Assembly: GCA_020073615.1 (NCBI GenBank)
Contig: JAIQEX010000041.1
Coordinates: 1 to 46,485 of the forward strand
DNA from: Terriglobia bacterium
Lineage (GTDB): Bacteria > Acidobacteriota > Terriglobia > Bryobacterales > Bryobacteraceae
Length of the DNA: 46,485 bases
Direction: 5' to 3'
In this document: one piece after another, positions 36,415 through 44,076 of the stretch
Layout: every line of letters begins with the position of its first letter
Numbering within the stretch: position 1 is the stretch's first letter
The notes under the pieces: generated by a model
Database searches by the model: none
What the model was told of the DNA's origin: nothing
Seen by the model: only the letters and a program-made list of their open reading frames with translations
Program-made: the position numbers and the translations under genes

Positions 36415-36834
36415 TCAAGTTCGTAGAGGAATCAACAGCCGGAACCGTTTGTTCGCGCCCCAACGGTACACTTCAAAGTCGCGGTCGAGAGTCAGAATGT
36501 CGCCGGTCCCCAGTTGTCCGGCGAGATGGACCAGGCAGGCATCGGCGAGATCGACCTCGCGGTCCCGGTACTTTCGGTAAACGCGCCGCAGTTGTGCCGC
36601 TGCCCGCGAGAGCTGTGCCGGAATCTGGAATGTTCCGGTTTCCACGTTTTCGAGAATCGCGTCCGCGGCGCCGGGCAGGTGCCGCAGCAGGTAACAACTT
36701 TCCGCGATGACCGCTTCACAGGTGACCAGGGGCGCCGCCAGCTTCTGCAGGTAATCGACACACGCCGTATGATACTGCTCGCTGCGGTCCAGCCAGGCGA
36801 CGACCACGCCGGTATCGAGCAATACCGGCTTCAA
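36415..36834 (-). CDS. PIN-domain toxin (VapC-like)
   Basis: 139 aa with a TTG start at 36834 overlapping the antitoxin stop (TTGA). PIN-fold acidic cluster: D in LLDTGVVVAWLD (about 7), E in EAVIAESCYLL (about 45), D in VDLADACLVHLA (about 98), and the later TLDRDFEVYRW (about 115-125). These are the metal-binding residues of VapC-type ribonucleases, which inhibit translation by cutting RNA. Together with the upstream short basic protein it forms a typical two-gene toxin-antitoxin unit, antitoxin first. Confidence 0.88.
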   Translation of the reverse strand: MKPVLLDTGVVVAWLDRSEQYHTACVDYLQKLAAPLVTCEAVIAESCYLLRHLPGAADAILENVETGTFQIPAQLSRAAAQLRRVYRKYRDREVDLADACLVHLAGQLGTGDILTLDRDFEVYRWGANKRFRLLIPLRT

Positions 36835-37061
36835 GACCCGAAACCCCTCAAGTGTTTCTTGTTCGATCCGAGGTCGGAGGTTCCGGAGTGGAATTGAGCC
36901 AGTCCGGCGATTCGTGGACGGCCCGACACAGGGTGCAGAGCAGCCACCAGGCGCAATCCCTCGCGCACGATCCGCGACGGGCTCCAGCCGAGCTCGCGGG
37001 CCATCTGCGCCAAGGCGCGCCGCTCCGCCGGACTAATTCGCGCCTGCACCGTAGCCTTCAT
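36831..37061 (-). CDS. antitoxin, ribbon-helix-helix-like, partner of VapC
   Basis: 76 aa from ATG 37061; an open frame continues upstream but carries no conserved sequence. N-terminal MKATVQARISPAERRALAQM is an RHH-like strand plus helix (KATVQARIS at the strand), followed by LGWSPSRIVREGLRLV. The C-terminal half (about 45-76) would wrap the toxin. A palindrome overlaps the region immediately upstream, as expected for autoregulation. Only 7 nt separate a TATACT -10-like element (minus strand, 37074-37069) from the start codon. Confidence 0.75.
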   Translation of the reverse strand: MKATVQARISPAERRALAQMARELGWSPSRIVREGLRLVAALHPVSGRPRIAGLAQFHSGTSDLGSNKKHLRGFGS

Positions 37062-37072
37062 AAAGGAGAGTA

Positions 37073-37508: not shown

Positions 37509-37556
37509 TTGACAGCCAATCGCAATTTGCAATATAGTAATCACAGATTGCTATAT
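37509..37556 (+). promoter_or_regulatory. promoter and autoregulatory palindrome of the XRE gene
   Basis: TTGACA (37509-37514) and TATAGT (37533-37538) with 18-nt spacing. ATATAGTAAT (37532-37541) and ATTGCTATAT (37547-37556) form a 10-bp inverted repeat (one mismatch, 5-bp spacer) running from the -10 box into the ATG at 37555, a placement that would block both transcription and initiation. There is no Shine-Dalgarno, and the predicted leader is about 10 nt. Confidence 0.7.
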
Positions 37557-38058
37557 GAGACTCGGCGAAAAACTCCGGTACCTGCGCGAGGTCGAGGGCA
37601 CGCTGCGCGGCCTCGATCGCGAGCTCTCGCAGCTCGAAATGGCGCGGCTCATTGAAAAGGAGCTGGGCAAAACCATCAGCCAGAGCTACCTTTCGCAGAT
37701 CGAGAGCGGCGCCCGGCCGCACCTCACCAACTCGTCGCGCATGTTGCTGGCGCGCTTCTTCAAGGTGCATCCGGGCTACCTGGTGGACGACCCGGAAGGC
37801 TACCAGAACGAGCTGATCAGCGACGTGGGAGCGCTTGAAGACAAGCTCGACCTGTGGCTCATCAGCGGCGCCGAGCGGTTCAGCCGCGACGTCGACCTGC
37901 ACCACGCGCTGCTTACCGTGGCGCGGCATGCGGATTCGCGCATGTGCCTGGTCCTGCTGGACACGATTTTAGAGAACCCGGGGCTGGCCGAGCGCCTCAT
38001 GGAAGTTCTCAAGGCGCCGCCGGCCGCGACGGAGCACAAACCGAGGAGGCGTTCATGA
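37555..38058 (+). CDS. XRE-family HTH regulator, first gene of the NfeD-flotillin-PspA operon
   Basis: 167 aa. The N-terminal helix-turn-helix (about 1-65) resembles Cro/C1-type repressors: LGEKLRYLREVEG, LSQLEMARLIEKELGKTISQSYLSQIESG (first and last parts of the HTH) and HLTNSSRMLLARFFKVHPGYL. The C-terminal 90 residues lack a known sensor domain and may dimerise. The start overlaps a palindrome, pointing to autorepression. The stop overlaps the nfeD-like start by 4 bp (ATGA), so it is co-translated with the membrane genes and is probably their regulator. Confidence 0.85.
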   Translation: MRLGEKLRYLREVEGTLRGLDRELSQLEMARLIEKELGKTISQSYLSQIESGARPHLTNSSRMLLARFFKVHPGYLVDDPEGYQNELISDVGALEDKLDLWLISGAERFSRDVDLHHALLTVARHADSRMCLVLLDTILENPGLAERLMEVLKAPPAATEHKPRRRS

Positions 38059-38654
38059 CCTGGTCCGATTTCTATCTCACTTGTTTCCTCGTCGGGTTCG
38101 GCCTGAGCGCGCTGGCGCTCCTGGCCGGCAGCGTGCACCTGCATCTGCCCCACCTGCACTTTCATCACGGCATCCACCTGCCCAACGGCGGGCGCGGGGG
38201 CGAAGTGCCGTGGTTTAATTTCGGCACCATCGCTGCCTTCCTGGCCTGGTTCGGCGGCACGGGCTACCTGCTGGAGCATTACTACCACGTGTGGGTAGTC
38301 ATCGCCATCGGCGTGGCCACCTTCAGCGGCCTGGGCGCGGCGGCGGTGGTGTTCTGGTTCCTGGCCAAGGTGTTGATGGCCGACGATGTGCCGCTCGATC
38401 CGGCCGATTACGACATGATCGGCGTGCTCGGCCACATCACCATTCCCATCCGCGCGGGCGGCACCGGCGAGTTGGTCTACTCGCAGGACGGCACGCGCCA
38501 CGTATCCGGCGCGCGCAGCGAGGACGGCGCCGCGGTCGCCAAAGGTTCCGAAGTCATCGTCACCCGGTACGAGAAGGGCATCGCCTACGTGCGCCCCTGG
38601 GAGGACCCCGGCGCCGGGTTGGACCATCAGGAGAATCAAGAGGAGAGACGCTAA
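38055..38654 (+). CDS. NfeD-like membrane protein
   Basis: 199 aa. Three predicted transmembrane segments (about 5-24, 55-75, 78-106), with a His-rich loop after the first (seven His in HLHLPHLHFHHGIH, about 26-39). A C-terminal OB-fold-like NfeD domain (about 118-185) reads GVLGHITIPIRAGGTGELVY and GSEVIVTRYEKGIAYV. NfeD proteins act with flotillin-type SPFH proteins in membrane organisation; this one precedes the flotillin gene by 5 bp. The His cluster is not usual for the family and could bind metal. Confidence 0.8.
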   Translation: MTWSDFYLTCFLVGFGLSALALLAGSVHLHLPHLHFHHGIHLPNGGRGGEVPWFNFGTIAAFLAWFGGTGYLLEHYYHVWVVIAIGVATFSGLGAAAVVFWFLAKVLMADDVPLDPADYDMIGVLGHITIPIRAGGTGELVYSQDGTRHVSGARSEDGAAVAKGSEVIVTRYEKGIAYVRPWEDPGAGLDHQENQEERR

Positions 38655-38659
38655 CTTTT

Positions 38660-40096
38660 ATGCCCCTACCAACTCCAGTCTGGATCGCCGCAGGTTTGTT
38701 GCTGGCGATTATGTTTATCATGGCGGTGATCGCCAAGCTGTACCGCAAGGCGGGACCGCATGAGGCGCTCATTGTCTACGGATTCCGCGGCACGCGCGTG
38801 ATCAAGGGCCGCGGCACCGTAATCTATCCCATGGTGCAGAGCTGCCGTGGGCTGTCGCTCGAGCTGATGTCGTTCGACGTCGCACCGAAGCAGGACCTCT
38901 ACACCCGGCAGGGCGTGGCGGTCACGGTGGAAGCCGTGGCGCAGATCAAAGTGAAGTCCGACCCCGAGTCGATCCTCACCGCCGCGGAGCAGTTTCTCAC
39001 CAAGCCGCCCGACGAGCGCGAAGGGCTCATTCGCCTGGTGATGGAAGGCCACCTGCGCGGCATTATCGGCCAGCTCACGGTCGAGGAGATCGTCAAGCAG
39101 CCGGAGATGGTGGGCGACCGCATGCGCTCCACCTGCGCCGACGATATGAACAAGATGGGCCTCGAGGTGATTTCCTTCACCATCAAAGAAGTCCGCGACA
39201 AGAACGACTACATCACCAACATGGGCCGCCCGGACGTGGCGCGCATCAAGCGCGACGCCGAGATGGCCACCGCCGACGCCGAGCGCGATACGGCCATCAA
39301 GCGCGCCGTGGCGTCGCGCGAAGCCGCCGTCGCCAAGGCCCAGGCCGACCAGGAGCGGGTGCTCGCCGAGACGCTGTCCCAGGCCAAACAAGCCGAGGCG
39401 CAGCGCGACCTGGAAGTCAAGAAGGCCGCCTATCTCGAGATGGTGAAGAAGCAGCAGGCGCAGGCCGACAAGGCCTACGAGATCCAGGGCAACATCATGC
39501 AGCAGCAGGTGCGCGCCGAGGAAGTCACCATCCACCAGGTGGAGAAGGAGCACGAGGTCAAGGTGCAGGACGCGGAAATTCAGCGCCGCGACCGCGAGCT
39601 CACCGCCACCGTGCTCAAGGCCGCCGAGTACGAGCGCAAGCGCATCGAGACGCTGGCCGAGGCCGAGAAGCAGCGCCTCATCATGGAGGCCGAGGGCCAC
39701 GCCGCGGCCATCCGCACGCAGGGCGAAGCGGAAGCCGAGATCATCTTCAAGAAGGGCGATGCCGAGGCGCGCGCCATGAACGTGAAGGCCGAGGCCTACC
39801 AGGAGTTCAACCAGGCGGCGATCGTCGACAAGCTCATCACCAATATGCCCGAGGTGGTCCGGGCCCTGGCCGCGCCGCTGGCCAACATCGACAAGATCAC
39901 CATCGTGTCCACGGGCAACGGCGACACCGCGGGCATTCACAAGATCACCGGCGATATCACGCAAATGGCGGCGCAGATCCCCGCGCTGTTCGAGACGCTC
40001 TCGGGCATGCCCCTCAAAGAGCTGTTCTCCAAGGTGCGGTTGATCGGCGACAAGTCGCCCAAGCACGACGGCAAGGACAAAGGCGCGACCGAGTAA
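38660..40096 (+). CDS. flotillin-like SPFH-domain protein
   Basis: 478 aa from ATG 38660. One N-terminal membrane anchor (about 6-28), SPFH/band-7 domain (about 30-190, MVQSCRGLSLELMSFDVAP, VEEIVKQPEMVGDRM), then a long Ala/Glu/Lys/Gln coiled coil (about 205-400) with the many EA/EAE repeats typical of flotillins (AEAEIIFKKGDAEARA). The C-terminal part is TNMPEVVRALAAPLANIDKIT, a flotillin signature. Forms oligomeric scaffolds at the inner membrane, probably with the NfeD-like and PspA proteins encoded either side of it. Confidence 0.93.
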   Translation: MPLPTPVWIAAGLLLAIMFIMAVIAKLYRKAGPHEALIVYGFRGTRVIKGRGTVIYPMVQSCRGLSLELMSFDVAPKQDLYTRQGVAVTVEAVAQIKVKSDPESILTAAEQFLTKPPDEREGLIRLVMEGHLRGIIGQLTVEEIVKQPEMVGDRMRSTCADDMNKMGLEVISFTIKEVRDKNDYITNMGRPDVARIKRDAEMATADAERDTAIKRAVASREAAVAKAQADQERVLAETLSQAKQAEAQRDLEVKKAAYLEMVKKQQAQADKAYEIQGNIMQQQVRAEEVTIHQVEKEHEVKVQDAEIQRRDRELTATVLKAAEYERKRIETLAEAEKQRLIMEAEGHAAAIRTQGEAEAEIIFKKGDAEARAMNVKAEAYQEFNQAAIVDKLITNMPEVVRALAAPLANIDKITIVSTGNGDTAGIHKITGDITQMAAQIPALFETLSGMPLKELFSKVRLIGDKSPKHDGKDKGATE

Positions 40097-40112
40097 GGAA
40101 AAGGAGAATCCC

Positions 40113-40775
40113 ATGGCACTCTTAGAGCGTGTTTCCACACTGGTCCGGGCGAATCTCAACGACCTCATCGACAAGGCCGAAGACCCGGAAAAAATGATCA
40201 AGCAGGTAATCCTGGACATGGAAAACCAGTTGCTCCAGGTGAAGACGCAGGTGGCCATTTCCATCGCCGACCAGCACGTGCTGGAGAAAAAGCTGAGCGA
40301 GAACGCCGACAACGAGCGGCAGTGGATGCGCCGCGCCGAGCTGGCCGTGGACAAAAAGGACGACGCCTTGGCGCGCGCCGCCGTGGAGCGGTCCATGAGC
40401 TACAAGTCCACCACCGAGAGCTTCCGGCAACAGGTGGAGGACCAGAAGACGCAGGTGGAGAACCTCAAGACGGCGCTGCTCAAGCTGCAGCAGAAGCTGG
40501 CCGAGGCGCAGTCCAAGAGCGACATGCTGATCGCCCAGCACCGCCGCTCGCGGGCCCTCGGCAAGGCTACCAACGCCGGCCTCAACATCGGCGATCAATC
40601 CAAGGCGGCGGCCTTCGACCGCATGAAGAACAAGGTGCACCACACGGAAGCGGCGGCGCAGGCCAAGGCCGAGCTGCTGGCCGACGACGTGGACGACCGC
40701 TTCGCGGCCATGGAGAAGCAGGAGAAGATCGATCAGGTCCTGGAGGAGATCAAATCCAAACGCAAAGTGGGGTAG
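40113..40775 (+). CDS. pspA: PspA/IM30 family membrane-stress protein
   Basis: 220 aa; AAGGAG 6 nt before ATG 40113. All-helical coiled-coil ESCRT-III-like protein with the family segment LIDKAEDPEKMIKQVILDME (about 18-37), followed by the long hairpin (QQVEDQKTQVENLKTALLKLQQKL) and a C-terminal helix (FAAMEKQEKIDQVLEEIKSK). PspA binds and repairs stressed inner membranes. It is 16 bp after the flotillin gene in the same operon; no pspF or pspBC genes are present, so control is probably by the XRE protein. Confidence 0.93.
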   Translation: MALLERVSTLVRANLNDLIDKAEDPEKMIKQVILDMENQLLQVKTQVAISIADQHVLEKKLSENADNERQWMRRAELAVDKKDDALARAAVERSMSYKSTTESFRQQVEDQKTQVENLKTALLKLQQKLAEAQSKSDMLIAQHRRSRALGKATNAGLNIGDQSKAAAFDRMKNKVHHTEAAAQAKAELLADDVDDRFAAMEKQEKIDQVLEEIKSKRKVG

Positions 40776-40803
40776 GCGGAGCCCTCTGGGCCCACCTGCC
40801 ACT

Positions 40804-40829
40804 GGCGGCCGGGACTCTTTCCGGCCGCC
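40804..40829. terminator. strong hairpin between pspA and the PH-domain gene
   Basis: GGCGGCCGG / CCGGCCGCC, a perfect 9-bp GC stem with an 8-nt loop, 28 bp after the pspA stop. No T-tract; could be a weak terminator or attenuator that lowers expression of the next two genes. Confidence 0.5.
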
Positions 40830-40844
40830 TGCGGGGAGAACTGT

Positions 40845-41222
40845 ATGACACACACGTCGCGATTCGACTGGTGGCTGTTGCCGGCCATCGCTCTTGCCAT
40901 TGCCGTCCTTCTCATAACGCACAACTACTGGGTGGGAGGGCCGGTCTTACTGGTCCTGGCGCTCTGCGCTTACCCCCAGTCCTACCAGACGACGCCCGAG
41001 GGACTGCTGGTCCGCGCCGCACTGACGCGGCAGTTGATCCCCTATGAGTCGATCATGTCGATCGGCCCGGGGGAGAGAGGAAACCGGATCCGGATCCAGT
41101 ACGGTCTCGCCTCCGAACTGCTGGTCGCGCCCGCCGACCGTGACGCCTTTCTGCGCGACATGGCGGCACACACGCCGCATTTGACGCGGCTGGGCCGCAA
41201 GCTGATGGCCATCTTCGCCTGA
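40845..41222 (+). CDS. membrane-anchored PH-domain-like protein
   Basis: 125 aa. Two closely spaced hydrophobic segments at 9-45 (WWLLPAIALAIAVLL and GPVLLVLALCAYP), then a bacterial PH-like beta domain (TPEGLLVRAALTRQLIPYESIMSIGPG, first part given) with helix DAFLRDMAAHTPHL. Similar to the YdbS/bPH_6 type proteins that sit at the membrane. Probably associates with lipid or with the PspA/flotillin assembly. Separated from pspA by the hairpin above. Confidence 0.65.
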   Translation: MTHTSRFDWWLLPAIALAIAVLLITHNYWVGGPVLLVLALCAYPQSYQTTPEGLLVRAALTRQLIPYESIMSIGPGERGNRIRIQYGLASELLVAPADRDAFLRDMAAHTPHLTRLGRKLMAIFA

Positions 41223-41226
41223 CCCC

Positions 41227-41640
41227 ATGGACAAGCTATTCCACTTCGACTGCCCGCAGGAGGTCTACACGGCGGATGCGTGCGTGATCTCCTGCTTCGA
41301 CGCGCGCTTCGACGTGGCGGTCCGCAAATTCCTCAAGCGCTGCGGCGTCTTCCTGTACGACCACGTCAAGATACCGGGCGGGGCGAAATCGCTGGCGGCG
41401 CCGGAGTGCGAGACCGACCGCGATTTCGTCCTGCGCATGGTGCGCACCTCCATCCGCCTGCACCGCCCGCGGCGCGCGCTCATCCTGGCGCACCAGGAAT
41501 GCGGGGCGTACGAAGGGATCGCGCTCGAGGTGGTCACCGCCGACGTCCTGCGCGCCGCCGAATGCCTGCGCGCGCAGGAGCCCTCGCTCGCCGTGGAATG
41601 CTACTTCGCCGATTTCGACGGCGTTTACCGGATCGGCTGA
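41227..41640 (+). CDS. short beta-carbonic-anhydrase-like protein
   Basis: 137 aa. Contains the zinc-site pattern of beta-carbonic anhydrases: SCFDARFD (C-x-D-x-R, about 22-29) and HQECGAYEG (H-x-x-C, about 88-96), plus the intervening KIPGGAKSLA. Beta-carbonic anhydrases are usually 180-230 aa and carry more helices around the active site. This protein has the core ligands (Cys, Asp-Arg pair, His, Cys) but is shorter, so activity is not certain. It begins 4 bp after the PH-domain stop. Last gene before the terminator. Confidence 0.7.
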   Translation: MDKLFHFDCPQEVYTADACVISCFDARFDVAVRKFLKRCGVFLYDHVKIPGGAKSLAAPECETDRDFVLRMVRTSIRLHRPRRALILAHQECGAYEGIALEVVTADVLRAAECLRAQEPSLAVECYFADFDGVYRIG

Positions 41641-41698: not shown

Positions 41699-41844
41699 CT
41701 GCCCTCCAAAATACATGATTCACCCGTTCCTGCATCCTGTCAGCAACCTGCGATATTTACATTTGATTTACGAGTAATTCACAACGAAAGGAGCCCGGTT
41801 ACTCGCGCGGAAGTCAGTTGCGGGCGCCGTACCAGAAACGAATC

Positions 41845-44076
41845 ATGAACACCATCGAGAACGCAGCCGGCAGGGCCGCCATCGTGGCCCTGGCTTTTTT
41901 GATCGCCATTGCGGCGACCCCGGCCCGAGCAGGGCGTGGAGGCGACGGGCAGACTGGGCCGGCGGTGGGCCCAACCGACCACGGCGGGGTCAGCGGGGGT
42001 GGCGGCAACGGCGGAGGGGGCGGCAACCGGGGTGGAGGCGGCGAACAAGGCGGGGGGAACCAGGGCGGCGGAGGCGGCAAGAACGGGGGCGGCGGCAGGG
42101 TGGTCGGCACCCCGACCGGTGGCACTCCGACGGGCGGAACTCCGGCTGGCGGCACTCCCACGGGTGGAACGCCGACGGGCGGAACTCCGGCTGGTGGAAC
42201 CCCAACCGGCGGCACTCCAACCGGCGGCACCCCGACGGGGGGCACCCCGACGGGCGGCACCCCGACCGGTGGGAACGAGAACGGCGGCGGCGGTGGCGGC
42301 GGTGGCGGTGGCGGCACCCCCGCATCTTTAGGCACGGTCCCCATCCCCACGCCGCCCGATCTCACCACCTACGTGAGAGACCAGAAGGCCCTGGTCGTCC
42401 TCGGCAAGGCTCTGTTCTGGGACATGCAGACCGGCACTGATGGCAAGCAGGCCTGCGCCACGTGCCACTTCCACGCCGGCGCGGACCATCGGCGTACCAA
42501 CCAGATCAACGGCAATGGCGGCGCCTTCACCGCCAACTACACGCTCGGCGCCGGGGACTTCCCGTTCCACACGCAGCAGGTCGCCGGGTCGGCCGGCGTG
42601 CCCGACCGCTCATTTATCGACGTCGTCCCCGGCAGCGCGGTCGATGATGGTTTCTCGCAACTCGATCCGCAGTACAGCATCGAGGGCGTGGGCGTGCGGC
42701 GCGTGACCGGCCGCAATGCTCCCACGGTGATCAACGCCGTTTTCAACGTCCGCAACTTCTGGGACGGGCGCGCCAGGGATGTGTTCACCGTGTTTACGCC
42801 CTTCGGCGATTCGGACCCGAGCGCCAATATCGTGATGGAATCCGGCGGCAGGCTGACGGCGGTCAAGAACCGCATCCAGAACTCCAGCCTGGCCTCGCAG
42901 TCCGTGGGGCCGCCCATGAGTCCTGTAGAAATGTCGTCGGCAGGCCGCACCTGGCGGAAGCTCGGCAAGAAAATGCTCAGCCTGGCGCCCCTGGCCAACC
43001 AGCGCGTCCACCCCGGGGACAGCGTGCTCGGACCTTCCGCCAATGCGTTCGGAACCGGCCTGCAACCGTGGATCACATACGCCTCGTTGATCCAGCAGGC
43101 GTTCCTGCCGCAGTACTGGAGCTCGGTGCAACTGGTGGACGGCTCCGGCGCGAACCTCGGGCTCGCCGGCGCGCCGTCGAACACCGATCAATACTCGCAG
43201 ATGGAGTACAACTTCGCGCTCTTTTGGGGCCTGGCGATCCAGGCCTACGAGGCCACGCTGGTTTCCTCGGCGAGCCCGTTCGATCAATTCGCGGCCGGCA
43301 ACCGCAACGCCCTGACCGCCCAGCAGGCACAGGGACTGAACATCTTCACAGGCAAGGGGCAATGCACCAACTGCCACTCCGGAGCGGAATTCACCTCCGC
43401 GTCCTTCACCGCGCTGAACCGCCAGGGGAAGGTGCAAGGCCTCTCCCACGGCCTCCAAACCGACACCGGCTTCTTCCGCACCGGCGTGCGGCCCATTGCC
43501 GAGGACATCGGCATCGGCGGTAAGGACGGCTTCGGACAGCCGCTCTCCATCGCGGCGGCGCAGAGCCTCGGCAATGCCGCCGGCGTCAACGGCGCGTTCA
43601 AAGTGCCTACGGTGCGCAATACGGAGTTCACCGGCCCCTACTTCCACAACGGAGGCGCGGCCACGCTGGACCAGGTGGTGGACTTCTACTCCCGCGGCGG
43701 CGACTTCCCCGGCGACGGCAACCTGGGCCCCGGCATCCAGCCGCTCAGCCTGTCGGCCGGCGACCATGCCGCGCTGGTCGAGTTTCTCAAAGCGCTGAGC
43801 GACGACCGCGTGCGCTTCGAGCGCGCGCCCTTCGACCATCCCCAACTCTGCGTGCCCGACGGAGAGCAGACCTTCACCCCCGGCGTGCCGATCCCCAACT
43901 TCACCTTCGATGGGCGCTTCCTGAACGAAGCCCTGGACAACATGGTGGAGATTCCCGAAGTGGGCGCGGCGGGTGGGCCGCCGCTACAGACCTTCGCCGA
44001 GTTGATCGGCGCCGCCGCCGCCAACGGGCCGCGCGCGCACGATCTGTCGCAGGTGTGCACCACGCAATTCCAGTAA
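41845..44076 (+). CDS. secreted di-haem cytochrome c peroxidase-like protein with GTPTG repeat
   Basis: 743 aa from ATG 41845. A signal peptide (AAIVALAFLIAIAATPARA) is followed by a low-complexity segment of about 140 residues: Gly-rich, then 11 GTPTG units (88-142), then poly-Gly. The catalytic part follows, with haem motif CATCH (204-208) and second site CTNCH (507-511), and the peroxidase segments DGRARDVFTVF, FHNGGAATLDQVVDFYSRGG and ALVEFLKALSDDR. The haem spacing is much longer than in classical CcpA, as in the large MauG-type proteins. Likely exported; the repeat may extend the enzyme from the cell. No second gene supplies an obvious electron donor. Confidence 0.85.
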   Translation: MNTIENAAGRAAIVALAFLIAIAATPARAGRGGDGQTGPAVGPTDHGGVSGGGGNGGGGGNRGGGGEQGGGNQGGGGGKNGGGGRVVGTPTGGTPTGGTPAGGTPTGGTPTGGTPAGGTPTGGTPTGGTPTGGTPTGGTPTGGNENGGGGGGGGGGGTPASLGTVPIPTPPDLTTYVRDQKALVVLGKALFWDMQTGTDGKQACATCHFHAGADHRRTNQINGNGGAFTANYTLGAGDFPFHTQQVAGSAGVPDRSFIDVVPGSAVDDGFSQLDPQYSIEGVGVRRVTGRNAPTVINAVFNVRNFWDGRARDVFTVFTPFGDSDPSANIVMESGGRLTAVKNRIQNSSLASQSVGPPMSPVEMSSAGRTWRKLGKKMLSLAPLANQRVHPGDSVLGPSANAFGTGLQPWITYASLIQQAFLPQYWSSVQLVDGSGANLGLAGAPSNTDQYSQMEYNFALFWGLAIQAYEATLVSSASPFDQFAAGNRNALTAQQAQGLNIFTGKGQCTNCHSGAEFTSASFTALNRQGKVQGLSHGLQTDTGFFRTGVRPIAEDIGIGGKDGFGQPLSIAAAQSLGNAAGVNGAFKVPTVRNTEFTGPYFHNGGAATLDQVVDFYSRGGDFPGDGNLGPGIQPLSLSAGDHAALVEFLKALSDDRVRFERAPFDHPQLCVPDGEQTFTPGVPIPNFTFDGRFLNEALDNMVEIPEVGAAGGPPLQTFAELIGAAAANGPRAHDLSQVCTTQFQ
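42106..42270 (+). repeat. minisatellite, 15-bp unit x 11, coding for GTP(T/A)G
   Basis: Eleven tandem 15-nt units (consensus GGCACTCCGACGGGC with third-base variation), in frame, encode GTPTG or GTPAG. Copy number could vary between strains by slippage. Confidence 0.9.

Follow-up and report, generated by a model that had tools for sequence, protein, structure and literature searches.

Contig JAIQEX010000041.1 of a Terriglobia bacterium (NCBI GenBank assembly GCA_020073615.1; 46,485 nt, here called the window) encodes an XRE-family regulator with a helix-turn-helix (HTH) domain, followed by an NfeD-like membrane protein, a flotillin, and a PspA/IM30 family protein. Comparative sequence analysis suggests that the XRE protein is an autorepressor that heads this flotillin–NfeD–PspA operon, acts through a double box at its own promoter, and in some genera also controls a second PspA operon. 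We give this reading a probability of roughly 0.7. PspA proteins belong to the ancient factors of membrane repair, and how they are controlled is known for few phyla. With a 37-bp signature that follows one regulator through some 80 genomes, Psp control in Acidobacteria can be tested directly and targets can be predicted genome by genome. The sites further suggest that one regulator can coordinate two paralogues of PspA, a point relevant to the question of why bacteria maintain several.

All genes of the block lie on the plus strand. The XRE gene (37555–38058, 167 aa) is followed by those for the NfeD-like protein (38055–38654, 199 aa), flotillin (38660–40096, 478 aa), PspA (40113–40775, 220 aa), a PH-like protein (40845–41222, 125 aa), and a putative carbonic anhydrase matching Pro_CA_2 (41227–41640, 137 aa). 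The intergenic gaps are, in order, −4, 5, 16, 69, and 4 nt, and the XRE stop and NfeD-like start share an ATGA overlap. The original prediction, made from the sequence of the window, had placed the first five genes in one operon. Gene calls and Pfam searches recovered all five as described (gaps of −4 to 69 nt); the proposed end point did not stand, as the Pro_CA_2 gene follows directly on the PH gene.

Relatives were collected as a first set of 61 genomes (the host and 60 relatives), a larger set of 257 genomes of the host's order (G numbers), and a scan of named genomes for XRE relatives that retained 80 of 201 stretches (L loci, some of which overlap with the G genomes). The host genome comprises 6.96 Mb in 252 contigs and is 98% complete; the closest XRE relatives of the window come from metagenome-assembled genomes labelled Bryobacteraceae, Bryobacterales, Terriglobia, or Solibacteraceae. 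The XRE gene occurs in 12 of the 61 genomes, and the same 12 carry close PspA and flotillin relatives on the same contigs. The neighborhood check proposed with the original prediction upheld the linkage: NfeD, flotillin, and PspA genes follow in all 61 XRE loci whose downstream sequence extends to 3.6 kb or more, in the gene order of the window. By this comparison, XRE, NfeD-like, flotillin, and PspA appear to form a conserved four-gene unit. Taxonomy labels place 78 of the 80 loci in Acidobacteriota or groups within it, including Silvibacterium bohemicum S15 (L137); the other two are labelled Deltaproteobacteria (L113) and Syntrophobacter (L130).

The double box at the XRE promoter

A promoter scan of both strands between 36800 and 41900 returned four promoter-like sites, compared with 0.6 in shuffled sequence. 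The best is a sigma-70-like promoter at 37509–37538 (+), with TTGACA as the −35 element (37509–37514), TATAGT as the −10 element (37533–37538), a spacer of 18, and 11 of 12 consensus matches. Box 1 of the candidate operator, ATCGCAATTTGCAATA (37519–37534, +), lies in the spacer and runs into the −10 hexamer. Box 2, ATCACAGATTGCTATA (37540–37555, +), is placed 21 bp from box 1 and covers the predicted transcription start. The boxes thus span the spacer, −10 element, and start, an arrangement that is consistent with the autoregulation proposed for this promoter. The final A of box 2 is the A of the XRE start codon, as it is in 51 of 78 sites. The leader would be about ten bases, too short for a ribosome-binding site, so a near-leaderless translation start of XRE is likely.

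For the operator comparison we used 84 distinct upstream sequences, namely the window and 83 from the loci, leaving out six duplicates, L092 (just 19 bp upstream), and L071 (on a contig shared with L083). The boxes follow the 16-bp consensus ATYRCAnATTGCRATA, with seven near-invariant positions (AT..C.....G..ATA), and are spaced by 21 bp in 78 sequences and by 22 bp in three. Against a template drawn from the same 84 sequences, 76 scored 28–32 of 32, compared with 17–26 for 1680 base shuffles that preserved base composition only. A position weight matrix (PWM) was then built from 78 rows, after dropping the three sequences with 22-bp spacing together with L123, L135, and L142. Over these 78 sites, information content is high inside the boxes and low in the flanks, and the best −35 match lies most often 3–4 bp 5′ of box 1.

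A 21-bp site lies no more than 110 nt from the XRE start in 74 of the 80 named loci, 22-bp double sites occur in L106, L160, and L161, and L092 is cut by the contig end. The double box is detached from the XRE gene in L135 (at −419) and L142 (at −2025), as if DNA had been inserted between them. Over the full 790 kb of these loci, 75 contain exactly one 21-bp site, four contain none, and L122 contains two, the second being at a tandem psp operon. By these counts, no site at 21-bp spacing precedes NfeD, flotillin, or pspA in the 80 loci, and the idea of additional operators there was rejected.

The original prediction had instead pointed to a palindrome that overlaps the regulator promoter and reaches into the start codon. 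This element, ATATAGTAATC-ACA-GATTGCTATAT (37532–37556, with arms at 37532–37542 and 37546–37556), is real in the window, where its arms pair at 10 of 11 positions and extend to the start codon at 37555; it covers the end of box 1 and also box 2. As a conserved operator it was abandoned: over 78 distinct sites its register retains a mean of 6.7 of 11 pairs (61%), whereas the boxes are near-invariant at seven positions. Dyad pairing within the boxes averages 5.2 of 7 (74%) for box 1 and 4.7 of 7 (68%) for box 2, with 6 and 4 of 7 pairs in the window. The conserved feature is the two box sequences and their 21-bp spacing, not the palindrome register.

The double box and the XRE gene occur together. 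In the first set, the operator is present in 11 genomes, all among the 12 with an XRE gene, and in none of the other 49. In the set of 257, the operator (up to three mismatches) is found in 82 genomes and the XRE gene in 91, with both in 81 (Fisher p = 2.6e-54, not corrected for relatedness), while a reversed-pattern control matched 0 of the 257. The single exception, G248, carries the operator on a contig that ends just inside an XRE-like coding start. Among the ten XRE genomes without a strict site, weaker 21-bp sites are present in G084, G085, G091, G095, and G241, 22-bp sites in G070, G130, and G131, and a weak site in G035; G065 is cut. The first PWM scans fixed the spacing at 21 bp, so 22-bp sites escaped them; a variable-spacing scan of 14 chosen loci picked up G253, G255, G070, G130, and G131. 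A reported XRE pseudogene in G003 was dismissed, its TAG stop being the natural end of a shorter protein (locus L120 of the same contig).

Operator sites at a second psp operon and elsewhere

Outside the XRE locus, the site recurs before a second psp operon of relatives, which encodes a small CesT-like first protein, PspA2, and two more proteins, one of them DUF4178-like. It is present there in 14 genomes at 21 bp and in two at 22 bp. The operon contains a PspA family member, as PspA2 matches PF04012 at 142 bits (L189, G020). The labels CesT-like and DUF4178-like are tentative, as neither protein had a Pfam or NCBIfam match. At the 14 sites with 21-bp spacing, a −35 box stands 3–4 bp 5′ of box 1 (exact TTGACA in 13, five of six positions in the other). 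As the same holds for most other extra sites, they apparently represent the same promoter module. In G248 (L251) and G249 (L252), both psp operons and both operators stand in tandem on one strand of one contig; judging by length, L252 and L122 are one contig.

The CesT-like gene is found in 62 genomes, 53 of which also have an XRE gene (G248 included), and at least 16 of these 53 carry the site; it is carried by none of the nine CesT-bearing genomes without an XRE match. In this count the CesT-like loci of G251–G253 and G255–G257 were read separately, that of G258 was left out, and the contig of G247 ends within the CesT-like gene. The genomes with a site at the second psp operon fall in four genera (g20, g49, g83, and g86). 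Control of all CesT-like/PspA2 operons was rejected on the same figures, as the others examined do not carry the site.

In the 7 Mb of the host genome there are two double sites, one at the XRE operon and the other on contig C201. The latter sits between the gene for a 561-aa secreted-looking protein with CarboxypepD_reg repeats, which it faces, and a lactonase-type beta-propeller gene, and sister genome G001 has the same arrangement. The second PspA of the host (contig C47) was discarded as a target: it has no site at the 21-bp PWM threshold, and its context differs, with ABC-transporter-like genes adjacent by eye. Single-genome targets, also assigned by eye, include a protein resembling alpha/beta-hydrolases in G062 and, in G168 and G169, a membrane protein. 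The operator–promoter modules at L190:5775–5811 and L240:2990–3026 point away from a lactonase gene. On the strand they face, no clear gene follows, and they may give rise to a small RNA or antisense transcript.

The XRE protein and rival explanations

The XRE protein has an HTH domain at residues ~23–76 and a helical C-terminal part at ~80–153. Both are shared by 34 aligned XRE proteins, in which D99, L100, W101, G105, and R129 of the C-terminal part are invariant. The Pfam matches are HTH models only (HTH_3 at 23.2 bits against a cut-off of 23; HTH_31 below its cut-off), NCBIfam gave none, and no signal-binding domain was recognised in these searches. The nearest solved relative is EspR (3r1f, 3qf3, 3qwg), with a profile E-value of 9.2e-6 for an alignment that covers only residues ~26–83; the predicted structure matches EspR with a VIA Z of 9.4 and a root-mean-square deviation of 3.9 over 85 residues. 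The HTH appears to resemble EspR in both sequence and modeled fold. The TTTGC-type motif of EspR also agrees with the TTGC in the half-sites of the boxes. No chain named ClgR was among the nine XRE profile matches (E up to 10), of which EspR was first, although a direct comparison with ClgR was not made; the lack of ClgR chains among the fold matches carries no weight.

In the scheme we infer for XRE binding to the boxes, dimers, repression, signal, and physiological role, two XRE dimers would bind, one per 16-bp box, on the same DNA face and two helical turns apart. Judging from their position, the bound dimers would block the spacer, −10 box, and transcription start and so shut the promoter. 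Capture or alteration of the XRE protein under stress would then release the operon, yielding XRE, an NfeD-anchored flotillin scaffold, and PspA. The switch we favor is sequestration of XRE at the membrane by PspA or the flotillin scaffold. The same regulator would hold the second PspA operon in some genera and secreted or membrane proteins in others. From the sequence comparisons, repression of its own operon and, in some genera, of a second PspA system is the most likely role of XRE. The fuller version is more tentative, falling somewhat short of even odds. It makes XRE a dedicated master regulator of acidobacterial envelope protection that couples flotillin–NfeD–PspA with CesT-like–PspA2 via one tandem 21-bp operator, with a near-leaderless start codon within the operator and scaffold sequestration as the switch.

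Several observations weigh against this reading. The quality of the XRE model is moderate (mean predicted local distance difference test score 71.5, predicted template modeling score 0.42), and it matches the HTH domains of EspR and phage CI with a best Foldseek E-value of just 0.02. For these reasons the model does not settle the C-terminal part or the oligomer. The boxes themselves are only partly symmetric, by the average pairing given above. Among the 53 genomes that have both XRE and CesT-like genes, up to 37 lack the operator at the second operon, five of them by inspection, so this link is clade-limited to the four genera. A count of at least 16 in 53, set beside none in 9, makes no strong contrast by itself. 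The CesT-like gene had no match in the host genome. In G020 and G196 the sites face away from the nearest lactonase gene, leaving the target ambiguous, and extra promoters are possible before pspA in distant relatives, where the gap reaches 901 nt.

An XRE protein that acts as a homeostatic autoregulator, keeping the operon at a fixed level without a stress signal, is rather unlikely. A dense overlap of the operator with the −10 box, start, and start codon provides what simple autorepression requires, and the HTH-only Pfam result, with no recognised signal-binding domain, fits it. Conservation of the C-terminal part nevertheless points to a role beyond DNA binding, although that role may be dimerisation alone, and the operator also precedes other operons. 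We consider it unlikely that XRE activates transcription or works as an architectural protein that bridges DNA in the manner of EspR. EspR binds TTTGC-type sites and, in the available text of PMC3315491, is proposed to act as a dimer of dimers, and TTGC recurs in the half-sites here. Boxes over the −35/−10 spacer and start region are poorly located for activation, however, and two double sites in a 7-Mb genome are unlike a nucleoid protein, whereas the role of EspR is genome-wide.

Transcription of pspA and flotillin mainly from promoters of their own, with the XRE promoter serving the first genes only, is distinctly unlikely. It draws on gaps in distant relatives that reach 901 nt upstream of pspA and 1032 nt upstream of flotillin, whereas the gaps in the window are −4, 5, and 16 nt and the sole other plus-strand promoter-like match of the scan reaches 9 of 12 and lies inside pspA. 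Very improbable is a double box that serves another, unlinked regulator with XRE as a passenger: the link between XRE and site is drawn from sequence, but 81 of the 82 operator genomes carry XRE, the remaining one has a cut XRE start, and the operator is missing in the nine CesT-like genomes without an XRE match. Repression by XRE through the double box remains the reading that we prefer.

Operon proteins, known systems, and neighboring genes

The flotillin contains both Band_7 (99.2 bits) and Flot (33.8 bits) domains, and scores 330 of the 700 bits needed for the FloT equivalog cut-off of NCBIfam. PspA matches PspA_IM30 (PF04012) at 131.7 bits against a curated cut-off of 33.9. The NfeD-like protein alone stays under the Pfam cut-off (14.0 of 29.1 bits), although PF01957 is reached at E 0.1 or better in 23 of 41 relatives, and a profile built on these 41 matches Bacillus subtilis YuaF (E 6.8e-5). 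Its predicted fold aligns in Foldseek with YuaF (2k14, E 1.2e-5) and QmcA–YbbJ (8z5g, chain AA, E 5.7e-5). The predicted layout comprises three long, hydrophobic-looking helices, a His-rich loop, and a C-terminal beta (OB-like) domain; the model thus has the membrane helices and OB-like domain that mark an NfeD partner. The His-rich loop (residues ~27–54) lies between the first two long helices and has a median of 8 His in ~32 residues, compared with 1 in the remaining 167, across 41 aligned sequences. Metal binding by this loop is possible. The YuaF–FloT pair of B. subtilis is an SPFH–NfeD operon, and like it and QmcA–YbbJ of Escherichia coli, the window has an NfeD-like gene beside a flotillin gene. 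It differs in also having pspA, the XRE regulator, and the His-rich NfeD loop.

The PH-like protein is a weak assignment (bPH_4 at 21.0 bits, under the cut-off of 22.9). It belongs to the block in the window but was rejected as a core member, as it follows pspA in only 15 of the 56 loci with 1.2 kb of room. A carbonic-anhydrase-like gene is present in 10 of these 56 as a recurrent last gene of the block, sometimes without an intervening PH match (L094, L130). The CxDxR and HxxC motifs of the window's protein are presumably in the style of a beta-carbonic anhydrase. A GC-rich hairpin after pspA had been expected to tune the last two genes. The hairpin exists (40799–40834, +), between pspA and the PH gene, and no terminator-like U-run was found 3′ of it. 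Of the 19 loci with a PH gene, 10 have a perfect stem of at least 8 bp within 110 nt 3′ of pspA, as do 9 of the 45 loci without one. The tuning idea is weak: a strong stem recurs there in about half of the PH-bearing relatives, and the U-run is missing.

The operon differs from the classical pspF–pspABC system: PspB (PF06667) and PspC (PF04024), whose lack had been claimed, gave no match in the whole host genome (98% complete). The further suggestion that this gene set would be a distinct circuit is not supported as new, as an earlier in silico study (Popp et al. 2022, PMC9239133) reported an acidobacterial operon of pspA with band-7/FloT, NfeD, and HTH genes. The available text of that paper suggests the HTH proteins as operon regulators and gives a band7_Flot neighbor for 11 of 19 acidobacterial PspAs; to this network the present analysis adds the XRE assignment, operator, promoter, and regulon. 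Contexts with flotillin, YuaF-like, and CesT genes are covered by Ravi et al. 2024 (PMC11237479), who also describe ClgR as a Cro-like HTH protein; their main text contains no occurrence of Acidobacteri-, NfeD, or XRE. Literature searches for PspA with the XRE family and flotillin, for phage shock protein and flotillin in Acidobacteria, and for Acidobacteria PspA, transcriptional regulator, and membrane stress found no paper, and one for Acidobacteriota and PspA found PMC9239133 alone. The available prior text gives no account of the operator or where it lies, of how it co-occurs with the XRE gene, or of its tie to a second psp operon, and these elements appear to be new.

Other Psp systems share parts of this arrangement. 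The actinobacterial ClgR–PspA–PspM–PspN operon also encodes a Cro-like HTH regulator with pspA, there suggested to be a repressor (PMC11237479), and the XRE gene likewise places a Cro-like HTH regulator in the pspA operon here; as described in the text available, that operon is without NfeD or flotillin, unlike the present one. In the B. subtilis pspA–ydjGHI operon, pspA is likewise combined with an SPFH protein, which is needed for membrane PspA foci (PMC8581546). That operon differs in being SigW-controlled and in having pspA first, and the available text names no XRE or NfeD gene in it. The second operon of the relatives resembles the CesT/Tir–PspA operons in layout, PspA2 being preceded by a small first protein and followed by a third gene, whereas no XRE operator is described for those in the text at hand (PMC11237479).

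Two further features flank the block. Upstream on the minus strand, a PIN-domain gene (PF01850, 50.2 bits; 36415–36834) and a short upstream open reading frame (~36831–37062), which by eye has the look of a ribbon-helix-helix antitoxin, together look like a VapBC-like pair. Downstream, a di-haem cytochrome c peroxidase is encoded at 41818–44076 (CCP_MauG, 85.6 bits); close to the N-terminus it contains a long GGTPTGGTPA repeat.

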